Numbered from the stretch's first letter, positions 54,440 to 60,034 are shown. The stretch is 64,000 bases of DNA from Aquisalimonas sp. 2447 (GCF_012044895.1 NZ_CP050695.1:2882501-2946500), one strand, 5' to 3'. A program made the numbers and translations. Notes: a model not told the origin generated them from the letters alone.

Positions 54440-54514
54440 GGGCGCGTAGCTCAGCGGGAGAGCACTGCCTTCACACGGCAGGGGTCGCTGGTTCAATCCC
54501 AGCCGCGCCCACCA
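54440..54514 (+). tRNA. tRNA-Val (CAC)
   Basis: A 75-base cloverleaf starting GGGCGCGTAGCTCAG and ending in an encoded CCA. The anticodon stem CTGCC/GGCAG surrounds the loop TTCACAC, with anticodon CAC reading GUG. The T arm has GGTTCAATCC. Confidence 0.94.
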
Positions 54515-54523
54515 GAATGACTC

Positions 54524-54555
54524 AGGGCTTACGGCATTGCCGTAAGCCCTTTTTG
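54524..54555 (+). terminator. Rho-independent terminator after tRNA-Val
   Basis: agggcttacggc and gccgtaagccct form a perfect 12-bp stem with a 3-base loop, followed by five T residues, 9 bases past the tRNA. Confidence 0.92.
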
Positions 54556-54616: not shown

Positions 54617-55165
54617 CTAAAACCCGAGTCGCAGTTCCAGCGACTGAACGTCATAACCCTGATTGGGGGAGCGCAGGCCGGCGTTGGATGTGTGCTGAAT
54701 GCGGTAGCCGACGCTGATGTGATCGCCAAGGCGCAGCCGCAAGGCCGCGTGGGAGGTGAACTGCCAGTGTCCGCCGAACTCACGTTCGCCCAGGCGCCGC
54801 TCGGAGATGTAGGTCGGCCCGGTGCCGAGGCCGAAACTGATCGGCTGCGCGGGACTGGTCAACCAGCCGCCAACACTCACGCCACCGGTATGCATGGCAT
54901 CACCACCAAGGCTGACGCGGGCTGCATTGAACTCGGTAAAGCCCGCCAGGTGCCAGCCACGACGGTCACCAAGGCGGGGCGCCAGAGCCGCGGGGCGCCA
55001 GTAAATCTCCCGGGAGTTGTAGTCGTGCCCATCGGCGCCGACCCCGACGCGAACGCCGAGCTCGCCAGCGACGACGACCACCTGCGGAACTGCCAACGCC
55101 GGTAACGCGACCAGCGCAAAACCCTGCAATAGCCGGACGGGGCGCAGTCCCTTGAATCGATGCAT
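54617..55165 (-). CDS. pagL: Lipid A 3-O-deacylase (PagL-like)
   Basis: A protein of 182 residues with a signal peptide (about 1-33) and alternating beta-barrel strands ending in LELRLGF, with a C-terminal aromatic residue as in outer-membrane proteins. The PagL active-site stretch is present: His158 and Ser160 in YRIQHTSNAG. The residue at the place of the catalytic glutamate (12 after the serine) is Asp172 in NQGYD, a conservative change. PagL removes the 3-linked acyl chain from lipid A. The start is the ATG at 55165, after an AGGGA ribosome site. Confidence 0.8.
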   Translation of the reverse strand: MHRFKGLRPVRLLQGFALVALPALAVPQVVVVAGELGVRVGVGADGHDYNSREIYWRPAALAPRLGDRRGWHLAGFTEFNAARVSLGGDAMHTGGVSVGGWLTSPAQPISFGLGTGPTYISERRLGEREFGGHWQFTSHAALRLRLGDHISVGYRIQHTSNAGLRSPNQGYDVQSLELRLGF

Positions 55166-55285
55166 CAATCGTCCCTGTTCTTTGTCACCAACTCCCGTTG
55201 GCGAGCGTCCGCGGTGCCGGCAGTAGCCTCTTTAGAACGTACACGCCAGCACCTGGTGCCGAAGTCGGCGTCGCCGGGATACTGG

Positions 55286-55315
55286 CAGCCGCACTGCCCA
55301 CTGGCAGTGCGGCTG
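55286..55315 (-). terminator. Perfect 13-bp hairpin after the sugar dehydrogenase gene
   Basis: cagccgcactgcc and ggcagtgcggctg pair perfectly around a 4-base loop, starting 8 bases after the stop. There is no T-run on the minus strand, so it may stabilise the transcript 3' end or terminate weakly. Confidence 0.5.
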
Positions 55316-55323
55316 TATCGCAG

Positions 55324-56607
55324 TTACTCGGCAGTCAGCCGATAAATGTCGCCCTCATCCTGGGCGATGTACAGATCACCTTCCGGCCCGAGCACCACAG
55401 ACCGGAAACGGCCATTGGACATGGGCAGGGACATGGTGGTCACGTCCCGCACCCGGGAGCCGTCCTCGGGGATGTCCAGTACGTCGATGCGCTGCCCCAC
55501 CGGCGTATCGCCGAAGCCGATCCCCAGGAAGCCGACCACCATCCGGCCTTCCCAGCCCTTCCACTGCGATCCGGTGAGGAACTCGGCGGAAGACATGCCC
55601 TGGGACAGCCCGTCGTTGGTCCAGGCCGGCTTGATGGCGTAGGGGTAAAGGTCCAGATCCGTCATGGGCATAAAGGCCATGCGCTCGTCGGGATCCATAC
55701 CCTCCATCTGGTTCGGCTGGTACCCACAGTAGTCATCGGGGCAATCGTCACGCCCGCTGATGTTGGGCCGCGGATCCCAGCCGGCATTGGCACCGGGAAT
55801 CAGGATCTTGACCTCATCGGAGTGCCACGGCCCGTGCTCCGCCACGAACGGCCAATGGGTGTTGGCGTGGAAGGCGATGCCCTGCACGTTGCGATGCCCG
55901 TAGGTGTAGATCCGCGGATCGAAACCTTCAGCGACGTTGTTGCCCGGGGCCCCGTTGCCGTCCCGATCAATACGCAGGACCTTGCCGCCGAGGCGCTCGG
56001 GATCCTGCGGAAGGTCACCCTGGTGGTTGTCGCCGGTGGTCACATAGAGAAAGCCATCCCGCGGGCTGAAGCGGATACGGCCGCCGTTGTGCGCACCAGC
56101 ATCACCGAACGGGTGATCGCTCTCCGCCATCTTGTACGGAATGTCATCAACGATGTCAGTGCGGTTCGAGACCTCGGTGAAATCGTCGTTGACCCGCAGC
56201 CGGAGCACGCGGTTCTTGTGGGGCGTGGTCTGGTTCGACGCCGAGTAGACGTACACGAAGCGGTTATCCTCGAAGTTCGGGTCCACCGCAACGCCGTTCA
56301 TCCCCGCCTGGCCGTGACAGAACAGATCGTCGGCGGTTGCGGCGTATCCGTCGGTGTCCTCCATGCCGAGCAGCCGATTGACTTCGCCGTCCGGGAGCCG
56401 GACGGACAGGCCATTGCACTTCTCGGTGAAAAACATGGTGCTGTCCGACAGAAATGCCATATCCCAGGGATCGTCAAGGTCTGACAACACCGTGGAATAA
56501 CTCAACTCTGGGGCGTCTTCGCCGGAGTCCGAGGCAACCGCCAGACCGTGGGTCATGGCAGAGGCCAGTAGCGCGTAAAAGGAGAATCTGGTTACTTGCC
56601 TAATCAT
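55324..56607 (-). CDS. PQQ-dependent aldose sugar dehydrogenase (soluble, YliI/Asd type)
   Basis: A secreted beta-propeller protein of 427 residues with a signal peptide ending about ASDS. It matches the glucose/sorbosone dehydrogenase family: the catalytic His173 in DAGAHNGGRIRF, YVTTGDNHQGD, GHRNVQGIAF and AEHGPWHSDEVKIL are signature positions that hold PQQ and calcium. It oxidises aldoses in the periplasm. Cysteines in the GRDDCPDDYCGY loop are extra. A cytochrome c and a PqqU-like receptor precede it, which would supply an electron acceptor and the cofactor. No pqqABCDE genes are in the window. Confidence 0.87.
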   Translation of the reverse strand: MIRQVTRFSFYALLASAMTHGLAVASDSGEDAPELSYSTVLSDLDDPWDMAFLSDSTMFFTEKCNGLSVRLPDGEVNRLLGMEDTDGYAATADDLFCHGQAGMNGVAVDPNFEDNRFVYVYSASNQTTPHKNRVLRLRVNDDFTEVSNRTDIVDDIPYKMAESDHPFGDAGAHNGGRIRFSPRDGFLYVTTGDNHQGDLPQDPERLGGKVLRIDRDGNGAPGNNVAEGFDPRIYTYGHRNVQGIAFHANTHWPFVAEHGPWHSDEVKILIPGANAGWDPRPNISGRDDCPDDYCGYQPNQMEGMDPDERMAFMPMTDLDLYPYAIKPAWTNDGLSQGMSSAEFLTGSQWKGWEGRMVVGFLGIGFGDTPVGQRIDVLDIPEDGSRVRDVTTMSLPMSNGRFRSVVLGPEGDLYIAQDEGDIYRLTAE

Positions 56608-56730
56608 GGGTGCTCCTCCTCATAGAAGTCTTGATTCTTGCTTCTTTTCGGGCTCCCTTGAAACGCCCCACCGCATGATGGGACGAGGACACCAGGCCGT
56701 CATGGCCGGGCGCTCCCAGTAACGCTGGGG

Positions 56731-57048
56731 TCACTGGAATTCCGTTGAGATATAAGCGGAGAGATTGGCGATATCGTCGTCCGAGAGATCCCGGGCGGCG
56801 GGTGCCATCAACCCGGTGTTGCTTCCCACCCTCTCGCCTTCGCGGTACTGCCTGAGCCTCTTGGTGACGAAGTCTGCATCCTTGTCCTGGAGCGAGGGAA
56901 AACTGCCCGCACCCCGTCCCGACGCCCCATGGCACTGGGCACACGCATTCTCGTACTTCGTCTGCCCCGCGGATGCATCTCCGGCCTGCACCTGAGTGAA
57001 TCCAGCGGCAAACCACACTGCAGCAATGAGAAACAACGCTCTTGTCAT
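56731..57048 (-). CDS. Periplasmic mono-heme cytochrome c (c5/c553 type)
   Basis: A protein of 105 residues with a signal peptide ending VQAGD. The heme-binding motif is CAQCH, the distal ligand is probably the methionine in GLMAPAARDLSD, and the end IANLSAYIS is usual for class I cytochromes. The ATG at 57048 has a GGAGG ribosome site. By position it is the likely electron acceptor for the neighbouring PQQ dehydrogenase. Confidence 0.9.
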   Translation of the reverse strand: MTRALFLIAAVWFAAGFTQVQAGDASAGQTKYENACAQCHGASGRGAGSFPSLQDKDADFVTKRLRQYREGERVGSNTGLMAPAARDLSDDDIANLSAYISTEFQ

Positions 57049-57209
57049 CAACCCCTCCACCTGATTGTTATCAATTTTGGATGCATCTCGGCAGGCCCAT
57101 GGCAAGAGAGAGCGGTGCGCCTGGCACCCGCCTGAGCCCGCAGTCCATTCTGGACCAAGTCGTCCAGTCCGGTATAAGCCCCATGAACCGGACCGTCAAT
57201 ACCGGACTG

Positions 57210-59258
57210 CTAGAACCGGGCGCGCACGCCGGTGAAGAAATTGCGCTCGGGTGCGGGCTCGAAGAATCGGCCAAAGCCCGCGTTGACCCGCACATTGCTG
57301 AAGTACTCCTGGTTGGTGATGTTGTTCACCGCCACGAAGGTCTCCACCCGGCCGCGCTGCCAGTGGTGTTCCGTCCCGACTCGGGCATTCAGCACGCCGT
57401 AGCCGGATACGCGCTCGTCGTTGGCGTTGTCGGCATAGACGTTACTGACGATCAGGGCATCGGCAATGGCGTAGAAGCCCTCGGCTTCCCGCCAGGCGAC
57501 TTCGAGGAAGACATTGTGCTCGGGGAGCCCCGGGAGACGATTGCCGCGGAATTCGTTGCCATCTTCGTCTTCGAATCGACGGAACCGGTAGTCCGACCAC
57601 GTGTAGCTGCCAGTGAATGAAAGTTCCGGTGTGGCGAAATACTCCATCCCCGCCTCGATACCTACCCGGCGGGTACGACCGGCATTGTCGAAACGGTCAG
57701 GGTCAGTATCCACCTGAACGATTTCATCGCGTGAACGCACACCGAAAACGGCAACATCGTACTGAGCCCGGTCGCCAAGAAACCCCTTCAGGCCAGTCTC
57801 AACGTTGACGGCCCGTTGCGGGCTCAGCCCCGGATCAAACCCTTCGTCCGGCTCATTGGGATCATAGAACTCGGTAAAGGTGGGAGTTTCGAAGGCAGTG
57901 CCCACATTGGTGTACCAGCGATGATTCGGATGAAGCTGGAGGCCGGTCCCGATGGTGCCACTCACCTCATCGAACCGCTGGCTGCCCGACGCATCACCGT
58001 CACCATCAGACCGGCGATCATCGATCTCGAAACGCACCCGGTCGTAGCGGCCTCCCAGGGTAATATCCAGAGCATCGGTGACAGCGATGTCCGTCTGCGC
58101 AAATACGCCGTAGTCCTCGGCTTTCTCCACGGCATCCTGCGTCTGTTCATCCGGACCGCCATTAGCCTCAACGTTAAAGCGCTCCCGCGCATCCCGTTGC
58201 CAGGCGCTCTCCACGCCCGCCACGAAGGTGGCCGGACGCCCGGCCAGTGTGTACTGATCCGTGTACTCGCCACCGATGCCGAAGAAATCCCGGTCATACT
58301 CGATCAGGCTCGGGCCCTCGAACGGCAACTGCTGGCGGAAATCCCTGCGTGTGTAAAACCCCCGCAGCGTCAGTTCTCCGGAATACGTCGCCCCATCCCG
58401 GTAGATCAGGCCAAGGCGCTGCTGCTCGACCTCCTGGCCAGCATCCAGATTCTCCGCGTTCGCCGTCGCCTGTCGCCGATTGTCGCGCACCTCGGCCCGA
58501 TTCAGCCCGGCGGGATCCTGTCCCAACGGCTGATCGAGAGCAGTAAACACCGTGGTGACGCTGCGCTGGTCATCAATGGCGTAGGTGGCCTTGGCGTTGG
58601 CCATGCGCTTTTCGGTACGGCTCTGGTCCCGGTAGCCCTCGTACTGCATGTCCCAGGCGCTGACATGGGCATTCCACGGGCCGGACTGCCCGCCGCCCAT
58701 GACCCCGTAGCGCTGGAAATCGTAGCTGCCCACGGTGCCGCGCACCTCCGCGTAGGGCTCGGCGGGGCCGTCCTTGGTGCGGATATCCACCACACCCCCG
58801 GCGGCATTGCCGTACAGCGCCGATGACGGACCACGGATCACCTCGATGCTTTCCGCTGTCTCCAGGTCGATGGCGTCCACCTGGGACTGGCCATCCGGCA
58901 GCGTCTCCGGGATGCCGTCCACGAGGATGCGAATACCGCGCACACCGAATGGCGCCCGGGCACCGAAACCACGAATGGACAGCCGCAGGTTCTGGGCGAA
59001 GTTATAGCGGTTCTGGAAGAACACGCCGGGGACACGATTGAGGGATTCATCCAGTTGCAGCTGCTGACGCCCCTGCTGGAGTTCGTCTTCGTCGACAACA
59101 CCCACGGCCGCCGGCGTCTGCTGGAGATCCCGCTCCAGGCGTGGGGATGTCACCGTGATCGGCTCAAGCCGAGCCCCATCATCCGCCACGGCCCCCAGGG
59201 GCATCATGGCCACCACCACCACGGGAATAAACGGTACTCCTCGCCACTTTTTTATCAT
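57210..59258 (-). CDS. pqqU: TonB-dependent outer membrane receptor, PqqU (YncD)-like
   Basis: A protein of 682 residues read from the ATG at 59258, with a signal peptide (MIKKWRGVPFIPVVVVAMMP). The plug domain closely resembles E. coli YncD/PqqU, compared from memory: TPAAVGVVDEDEL, NYNFAQ-like NFAQNLRLSIRGFGARAPFG, GIRILVDGIPETLPDGQSQ and EVIRGPSSALYGNAAGGVV. The barrel ends in a phenylalanine. PqqU imports the cofactor PQQ with energy from TonB-ExbBD. The next genes encode a cytochrome c and a PQQ-dependent dehydrogenase. An iron-siderophore role is the main alternative. Confidence 0.8.
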   Translation of the reverse strand: MIKKWRGVPFIPVVVVAMMPLGAVADDGARLEPITVTSPRLERDLQQTPAAVGVVDEDELQQGRQQLQLDESLNRVPGVFFQNRYNFAQNLRLSIRGFGARAPFGVRGIRILVDGIPETLPDGQSQVDAIDLETAESIEVIRGPSSALYGNAAGGVVDIRTKDGPAEPYAEVRGTVGSYDFQRYGVMGGGQSGPWNAHVSAWDMQYEGYRDQSRTEKRMANAKATYAIDDQRSVTTVFTALDQPLGQDPAGLNRAEVRDNRRQATANAENLDAGQEVEQQRLGLIYRDGATYSGELTLRGFYTRRDFRQQLPFEGPSLIEYDRDFFGIGGEYTDQYTLAGRPATFVAGVESAWQRDARERFNVEANGGPDEQTQDAVEKAEDYGVFAQTDIAVTDALDITLGGRYDRVRFEIDDRRSDGDGDASGSQRFDEVSGTIGTGLQLHPNHRWYTNVGTAFETPTFTEFYDPNEPDEGFDPGLSPQRAVNVETGLKGFLGDRAQYDVAVFGVRSRDEIVQVDTDPDRFDNAGRTRRVGIEAGMEYFATPELSFTGSYTWSDYRFRRFEDEDGNEFRGNRLPGLPEHNVFLEVAWREAEGFYAIADALIVSNVYADNANDERVSGYGVLNARVGTEHHWQRGRVETFVAVNNITNQEYFSNVRVNAGFGRFFEPAPERNFFTGVRARF

Positions 59259-59304: not shown

Positions 59305-60034
59305 CTAACCCGCTTGCGGTGGCCTGGGAAGGACGGGAGAGCGTTTGGGAATCAGCCATCGCGGCACCCAGTGCAGGTACGCCACCATGCCGAAGAGTTC
59401 CACCAGGGACTGGAACACGATGACGACCACCGCGGCCTGCAGCGCGTCCCCCAGGGTCAGGGCCAGCGGCAGCACCACGAAGGAGTTCCGGGTGCCCAGA
59501 CTGAACACCAGCGTCCGCGCACCGGCCACCGGCAGTCGGAATACGCGGCCCAGCCCCTTGCCTACCAGCGCGGCGCCCAGCAGGAACAGGATAAACACCA
59601 GCAACACCTGACCGAGCACCTCCAGTGTGTCCATCACCAGATGCACCTGAGAGGCCGCAATCAGAAACACCACCACCGCCCAGGTGAGTGAAGCTGATGA
59701 ACCAATCGGTGCACGGCAACAGCAGGACCAGCATGACCCCCAACCGGATCGCCGGCGTGTCGGGCAGCAAGAACAGCAGCCCCCACACCAGCAGGGGCAG
59801 CACGAGAAAATTGCCCGTACACAGCGCAGCGAGAAACCGCCAGTCCCGGAGCGCCGAGGGCAGCTGCACCAGGGGCACCTGGGCAAAAGTGGCATAGAGC
59901 AGTGCCCCCAGGGCCGGCCAAACCAGCACCTCCAGCGCCTCCCCGGCGGTGGGGGCGCCCGCTCCCAGCGCGAGGCCGACGCCAATGGCCAGCACGTAGA
60001 CCCACACCTGGTGGCGTTCCAGTTGCTCCCGCAT
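59305..60034 (-). pseudogene. Broken BASS/arsenite-type transporter with internal deletion and frameshift
   Basis: The first part (60034 to about 59690) encodes four or five membrane helices ending CTDWFISFTHLGGG. The rest (about 59690-59305) continues in another frame as AVVVFLIAASQVHLV, GLGTRNSF-like FSLGTRNSFVVLPLAL and a last helix. Together they give about 243 residues, whereas family members I know have about 320; the segment that should follow the CTDW motif is missing. The join lies in the GC-rich ctgggcggtggtggtg, suggesting deletion by short-repeat recombination. The intact gene was probably a BASS-superfamily (ACR3-like) efflux or anion transporter. A sequencing error alone would not explain the missing length. 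Confidence 0.75.

Follow-up and report, generated by a model that had tools for sequence, protein, structure and literature searches.

A predicted PQQ-scavenging periplasmic oxidation module in Aquisalimonas and candidate client enzymes of the importer PqqU

For which enzymes do bacteria that make no pyrroloquinoline quinone (PQQ) import this cofactor? The question is raised by a locus of the salt-loving bacterium Aquisalimonas sp. 2447, which we found in a stretch of 64,000 nucleotides (NZ_CP050695.1:2882501-2946500; hereafter the window, with positions counted from its first letter). We read this locus as a PQQ-scavenging periplasmic oxidation module, with a probability of roughly 0.8. We also lean toward a broader view, in which PF07995 dehydrogenases (and AA12-like enzymes) that have their own c-type cytochromes and are linked repeatedly to PQQ import or biosynthesis would be the main overlooked clients of the importer PqqU in bacteria reported as having no PQQ enzyme. 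The preliminary description of this DNA had placed the three genes concerned on one strand, and they are indeed contiguous on the minus strand, in the order receptor, cytochrome c, dehydrogenase:

57210..59258, minus strand: PqqU/YncD-type TonB-dependent outer-membrane receptor, 682 aa (ATG at 59258, stop at 57210), predicted PQQ importer
56731..57048, minus strand: monohaem c-type cytochrome, 105 aa, best start ATG at 57048, predicted electron acceptor
55324..56607, minus strand: six-bladed PQQ-type sugar dehydrogenase of family PF07995, 427 aa, predicted periplasmic

In the proposed mechanism, the TonB-dependent receptor would move external PQQ across the outer membrane, and PQQ and Ca2+ would then bind to the six-bladed dehydrogenase in the periplasm. 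The dehydrogenase would oxidise an aldose-like substrate, and its reduced cofactor would be re-oxidised by the adjacent monohaem cytochrome c, which would pass electrons to the respiratory chain. Because the cell appears to make no PQQ, the enzyme would depend on the importer, or on diffusion when external PQQ is high. Such a module had been proposed in the preliminary description and holds up well as a prediction, read from the gene set, the PqqU signature of the receptor, the fold and residues of the dehydrogenase, the lack of pqqB, pqqC and pqqE, and the recurrence of the linkage. PQQ transport, PQQ/Ca2+ binding, the sugar substrate, electron transfer and co-transcription are its predicted parts.

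The host genome and the three gene products

The host genome, a single 3.97-Mb contig with a completeness rating of 100%, lacks pqqB, pqqC and pqqE. The best pqqE-like match, far under the cut-off, is MoaA and was ruled out as pqqE by its sequence. The absence of pqq genes first reported for the window thus extends to the whole genome for these three genes, on which the non-producer status rests, pqqA and pqqD having been left out of the search. By this absence the host is a predicted PQQ scavenger. In its genome PF07995 matches number five (three are canonical, one is the window enzyme and one is weak), and those to PF01011 are confined to a single BamB-sized frame of 391 aa.

The receptor has the Pfam domains Plug and TonB_dep_Rec_b-barrel. 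A better match to siderophore transporters had been raised as an alternative, and PqqU/YncD came out far ahead: the best NCBIfam profile is PqqU (NF041535) with 409.5 bits, followed by a siderophore model with 199.6 bits, and the nearest Protein Data Bank (PDB) chains by sequence are 6v81 and 9c4o, both E. coli YncD/PqqU (1.8e-97 and 8.8e-97), while the next match, a metallophore receptor, is about 80 orders of magnitude weaker (5e-15). Munder et al. 2025 (PMC12124388) define PqqU by Y/F/W99, R304 and R365 in E. coli numbering. The window receptor carries F99, R304 and R365, and also Q84 and Q121, and the same F/R/R is found in 20 receptor orthologues of the order; own TonB receptors, taken as negative controls for this signature, back it weakly, since their retrieved frames aligned poorly. 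With both the signature and the homology used by Munder et al., the receptor is a predicted PQQ importer.

The dehydrogenase matches PF07995 at 9.4e-59 (199.8 bits; gathering cut-off 25), and membership in this family alone is no proof of PQQ use. It scores 103.6 bits against the NCBIfam glucose/sorbosone PQQ dehydrogenase model TIGR03606, below the cut-off of 434.55, and is ∼29% identical to E. coli YliI. We built an AlphaFold2 model from 24 relatives (predicted local distance difference test [pLDDT] 79.5, predicted template modelling score [pTM] 0.84). Its top PDB matches were PQQ sugar dehydrogenases, namely 3a9g, 2ism, 3das (PQQ-bound), 1c9u (with PQQ) and 2g8s. The match to 3a9g (E 8.5e-28, TMt 0.87) shows a six-bladed fold and sets the model nearer the aldose sugar dehydrogenase (Asd) side than AA12, for which the value was ∼1e-13.

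When aligned with YliI, the enzyme retains the R-N-x-Q motif and the C-terminal R-x-R as well as the catalytic His and the calcium carbonyls (G-P), and Q100, H173, R239, N240, Q242, G259, P260, R373, R400 and R402 are unchanged in the 24 relatives. The reference residues of soluble glucose dehydrogenase (sGDH) and Asd are His144, Arg228, Asn229, Gln231, Gly247/Pro248, Arg406 and Arg408, and correspond to H173, R239, N240, Q242, G259/P260, R400 and R402. Their numbering derives partly from PMC6881789, where Lys377 of sGDH contacts the C-7 carboxylate of PQQ. Four invariant cysteines (64, 97, 289 and 294) mark the subfamily. From fold and residues together, the enzyme probably uses PQQ to oxidise sugars.

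The cytochrome c matches PF00034 (1.6e-11, 45.8 bits) and has a single CxxCH. Its ATG at 57048 is preceded by GGAGGGG, and a longer TTG frame begins at 57105.

Linkage of importer, PQQ enzymes and PQQ synthesis

The preliminary description called for a check of the co-occurrence of the three genes. The set is present in three of the five Aquisalimonas genomes (G000, G002 and G003; G and L numbers are our handles for genomes and loci), and clusters equivalent to it, made up of PqqU, dehydrogenase and cytochrome, are also seen in other families and in Burkholderiales. Within the order, all nine orthologous dehydrogenase genes have the cytochrome c gene directly upstream. When named genomes were scanned, 379 dehydrogenase relatives came up, and neighbourhoods were judged in the best 80, from across Proteobacteria. 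A homologous cytochrome c gene was found within 1.5 kb and on the same strand for 45 of these 80, compared with one homologue on the opposite strand and four elsewhere in 1.17 Mb, and a small CxxCH frame of some kind lay within 1.3 kb on the same strand for 60/80.

A window-type dehydrogenase adjoins PqqU at five loci (L066, L106, L107, L122 and L132). Outside the genus, the two genes are divergent in Marinobacter zhanjiangensis and in a Burkholderiaceae metagenome-assembled genome (MAG) and convergent in Polaromonas, and in Noviherbaspirillum aerium dehydrogenase, cytochrome c and PqqU follow one another on one strand. At four further loci (L064, L121, L139 and L141) the dehydrogenase adjoins PQQ biosynthesis genes, the hosts being a Rhodobacteraceae MAG, a Bosea, a Boseaceae strain and, within the order, G047, which carries L064. 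In the order, every genome with a window-type enzyme has PqqU or pqqC (9/9, vs 34/54 overall; P=0.01). At L064:5075-10394 the cytochrome c-dehydrogenase pair and pqqBCDE stand back to back, and two M16 peptidases come next.

AA12 enzymes are known best from fungi. We could observe an AA12-like dehydrogenase, a cytochrome c and PqqU, in this order, in three genera:

L026:5263-9157 (G034), AA12-like/cytochrome c/PqqU cluster, all on one strand
L029:4069-7969 (G006), AA12-like/cytochrome c/PqqU cluster, all on one strand
L148:6254-10168 (G134), AA12-like/cytochrome c/PqqU cluster, all on one strand

Matched to the residues in PMC6881789, the AA12-like enzymes have HAANL or HAADL, RNSVG, and HGSWN (G034) or RGSWN (G006), the His equivalent to H560 being kept in G034 only. 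These loci represent another type of importer-client cluster, independent of the first. PqqU further adjoins other PF07995 enzymes, of the YliI type, in G083, G196 and G305, and eight-bladed PQQ alcohol dehydrogenases in G007, G010, G012 and G020. The G083 pair (L147:4813-8515) is retained in a genome of 1.1 Mb, and so survives in a small genome. At L058:7630-9698 (G020) the PqqU-like receptor beside the alcohol dehydrogenase is in two overlapping frames, a possible frameshift or pseudogene.

Canonical PF07995 enzymes are nearly universal in the order, which makes their co-occurrence with PqqU within it uninformative, and a class-wide sample with PqqU-negative controls was therefore used. Among 281 Gammaproteobacteria of at least 95% completeness, a threshold of E<=1e-85 gave 28 PqqU carriers, and 27 of them (our own genome left out) were compared with 50 PqqU-negative genomes. 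A strong PF07995 enzyme (E<=1e-40) was present in 25/27 carriers vs 18/50 controls (Fisher P=8e-7). Ten of the 27 carriers had no member of the PF01011 family, which is what "without quinoprotein" means here, PF13360 and PF13570 having been outside the search, and all ten had a strong PF07995 enzyme. Gaps of at most 1 kb between PqqU and a dehydrogenase were seen 4 times in this sample vs 0.08 expected (P=2e-6). The sampled genomes are related, so that the P values are guides, and most of the 27 carriers come from different genera. Scoring took at most four candidates per genome; carriers may thus have gone unnoticed among the PqqU-negative genomes, so that the contrast errs on the conservative side.

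These counts bear on an existing puzzle. Munder et al. 2025 (PMC12124388) found about one-third of PqqU carriers to be without a recognisable PQQ-dependent enzyme and proposed for them either an enzyme yet to be identified or an antioxidant function. Their search covered PF01011, PF13360, PF13570 and a further hidden Markov model, all eight-bladed families, and PF07995, YliI and Asd are nowhere named in their text. PF07995 is a strong candidate for the unrecognised PQQ enzyme of these carriers. The pairing in unrelated bacteria suggests which enzyme many of them import PQQ for, and with named genes the question becomes testable.

Alternative readings and the limits of the locus

Several observations speak against the module or against its generality. 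G001, of the same genus, has PqqU with no window-type enzyme beside it, and G004 has the enzyme and pqqC without PqqU; among the best 80 relatives of the dehydrogenase, only 5 have PqqU within 8 kb. The intergenic gaps are 161 bp (receptor/cytochrome c) and 123 bp (cytochrome c/dehydrogenase), and a scan for promoters and terminators gave nothing in favour of a single transcript; the gene order suggests co-transcription and is no proof of it. A genus of the order (g9; G018, G021, G026, G028, G032 and others) has canonical PF07995 enzymes and neither PqqU nor pqqC, and these enzymes would either obtain PQQ by diffusion or have a PQQ-independent role. The host itself has three canonical paralogues elsewhere in its genome (449, 428 and 418 bits) that could be the main clients.

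The alternative that survives best builds on these paralogues. PQQ import would be real but general, the receptor mainly feeding the three YliI/Asd-type enzymes, and its position beside the window enzyme would be incidental or reflect loose co-regulation. G001 and most PqqU-positive genomes show no linkage of PqqU, and in E. coli pqqU and yliI are likewise separate. Such a reading is quite possible, if not the one we expect, given that linkage arose repeatedly, with varied gene orders and enzyme families and well above the expected number of close pairs, and that the window-type enzyme is restricted in the order to genomes with PqqU or pqqC.

A second alternative concerns the dehydrogenase, which might be a PF07995-fold beta-propeller that is degenerate or lacks a cofactor, with the cytochrome c serving another oxidoreductase. 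The Lys377 position is lost throughout the subfamily, so that we do not file the enzyme as a canonical sGDH/Asd, and related propellers that are not PQQ enzymes, such as HHIP, still match the fold. In place of Lys377 there is a longer loop with the invariant R373, which, judging from the alignment, may act as a stand-in. We consider a cofactor-free protein unlikely in view of the PQQ and calcium residues invariant in the 24 relatives, the position back to back with or near pqq genes at four loci, and the cytochrome c that adjoins the dehydrogenase in most relatives.

Least likely is a receptor cargo other than PQQ, such as an iron chelate, in a coincidental neighbourhood: TonB receptors switch substrate easily, K274 is replaced by Gln here (and elsewhere in the order, in other clades, by Glu), R536 is aligned to a non-Arg residue with an Arg adjacent, and the score lies below the curated NF041535 cut-off of 1200 bits, for which reason we do not file the receptor as an equivalog, but that cut-off was reached by E. 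coli alone among the control genomes, K274 and R536 vary in the published survey as well (PMC12124388), and the conserved F99/R304/R365, the much weaker siderophore receptors and the PQQ enzymes of three families beside PqqU all point to PQQ.

Two further genes flank the three:

54617..55168, minus strand: PagL-like lipid A 3-O-deacylase gene (PF09411, 6.2e-19)
59305..60034, minus strand: SBF/bile-acid-symporter-like gene (PF01758 match in the first half only), directly upstream of the receptor

The range first given for the module, 54617-59258, contains the three genes, but its lower end also takes in the unrelated PagL-like gene, which we rejected as a member since no homologue of it stands beside the dehydrogenase orthologues of the order. 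Membership of the SBF-like gene, whose stop is ∼47 bp ahead of the receptor ATG, is doubtful, as there is none upstream of the receptor in the related Aquisalimonas locus L032. This gene is seemingly split between two frames near 59680, by a real frameshift or a sequencing error. Between the PagL-like gene and gltX, a tRNA-Val (cac) gene (54440-54514, plus strand) stands ahead of a strong hairpin and T-run (54524-54550); the T-run is on the plus strand, behind the plus-strand tRNA gene, and the hairpin was rejected as a terminator of the module.

Comparison with known systems

We found no description of the importer-client linkage in the openly accessible literature, subscription papers being outside the search. 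The families are already known; what appears to be new, by the open literature, is the importer-client-cytochrome cluster, together with its recurrence and the light that it throws on the PqqU puzzle. With these, sugar dehydrogenases that have dedicated cytochromes would join the list of PQQ-scavenging clients, and a putative PQQ sugar dehydrogenase family with natural cytochrome partners would be useful for electrodes and sensors. In the NCBI taxonomy, Aquisalimonas belongs to Chromatiales/Ectothiorhodospiraceae and lies outside the order Ectothiorhodospirales, which Munder et al. 2025 name along with Nitrosomonadaceae and Arenimonas.

In E. coli, PqqU (YncD) imports PQQ for the quinoproteins Gcd and YliI/Asd (Hantke & Friz 2022; Munder et al. 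2025, PMC12124388). The Aquisalimonas system shares with it the receptor family, the signature residues, a host without PQQ synthesis and a PF07995 enzyme in the genome, whereas in E. coli pqqU lies apart from yliI and in Aquisalimonas the importer gene stands side by side with those for dehydrogenase and cytochrome c. In four Burkholderiales, pqq operons adjoin PqqU (Munder et al. 2025, PMC12124388). Genes for PQQ supply are clustered there, too, with PQQ-related genes, but those loci join importer and biosynthesis, and the Aquisalimonas locus joins importer, client enzyme and cytochrome, without biosynthesis.

The window enzyme resembles the soluble aldose sugar dehydrogenases and sGDH (3A9G, 3DAS, 2G8S and 1C9U) in its six-bladed fold and in most PQQ/Ca2+ and catalytic residues. 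It differs from sGDH/Asd in the replaced Lys377, the longer loop with its invariant Arg, the four invariant Cys and the separate cytochrome c gene next to it. The Coprinopsis pyranose dehydrogenase CcPDH, made up of an AA8 cytochrome b and an AA12 PQQ domain (PMC6881789), likewise pairs a six-bladed PQQ sugar dehydrogenase with a cytochrome. In the fungal enzyme this is a fused cytochrome b, whereas the Aquisalimonas cytochrome c is a separate protein and the window enzyme is nearer to Asd.

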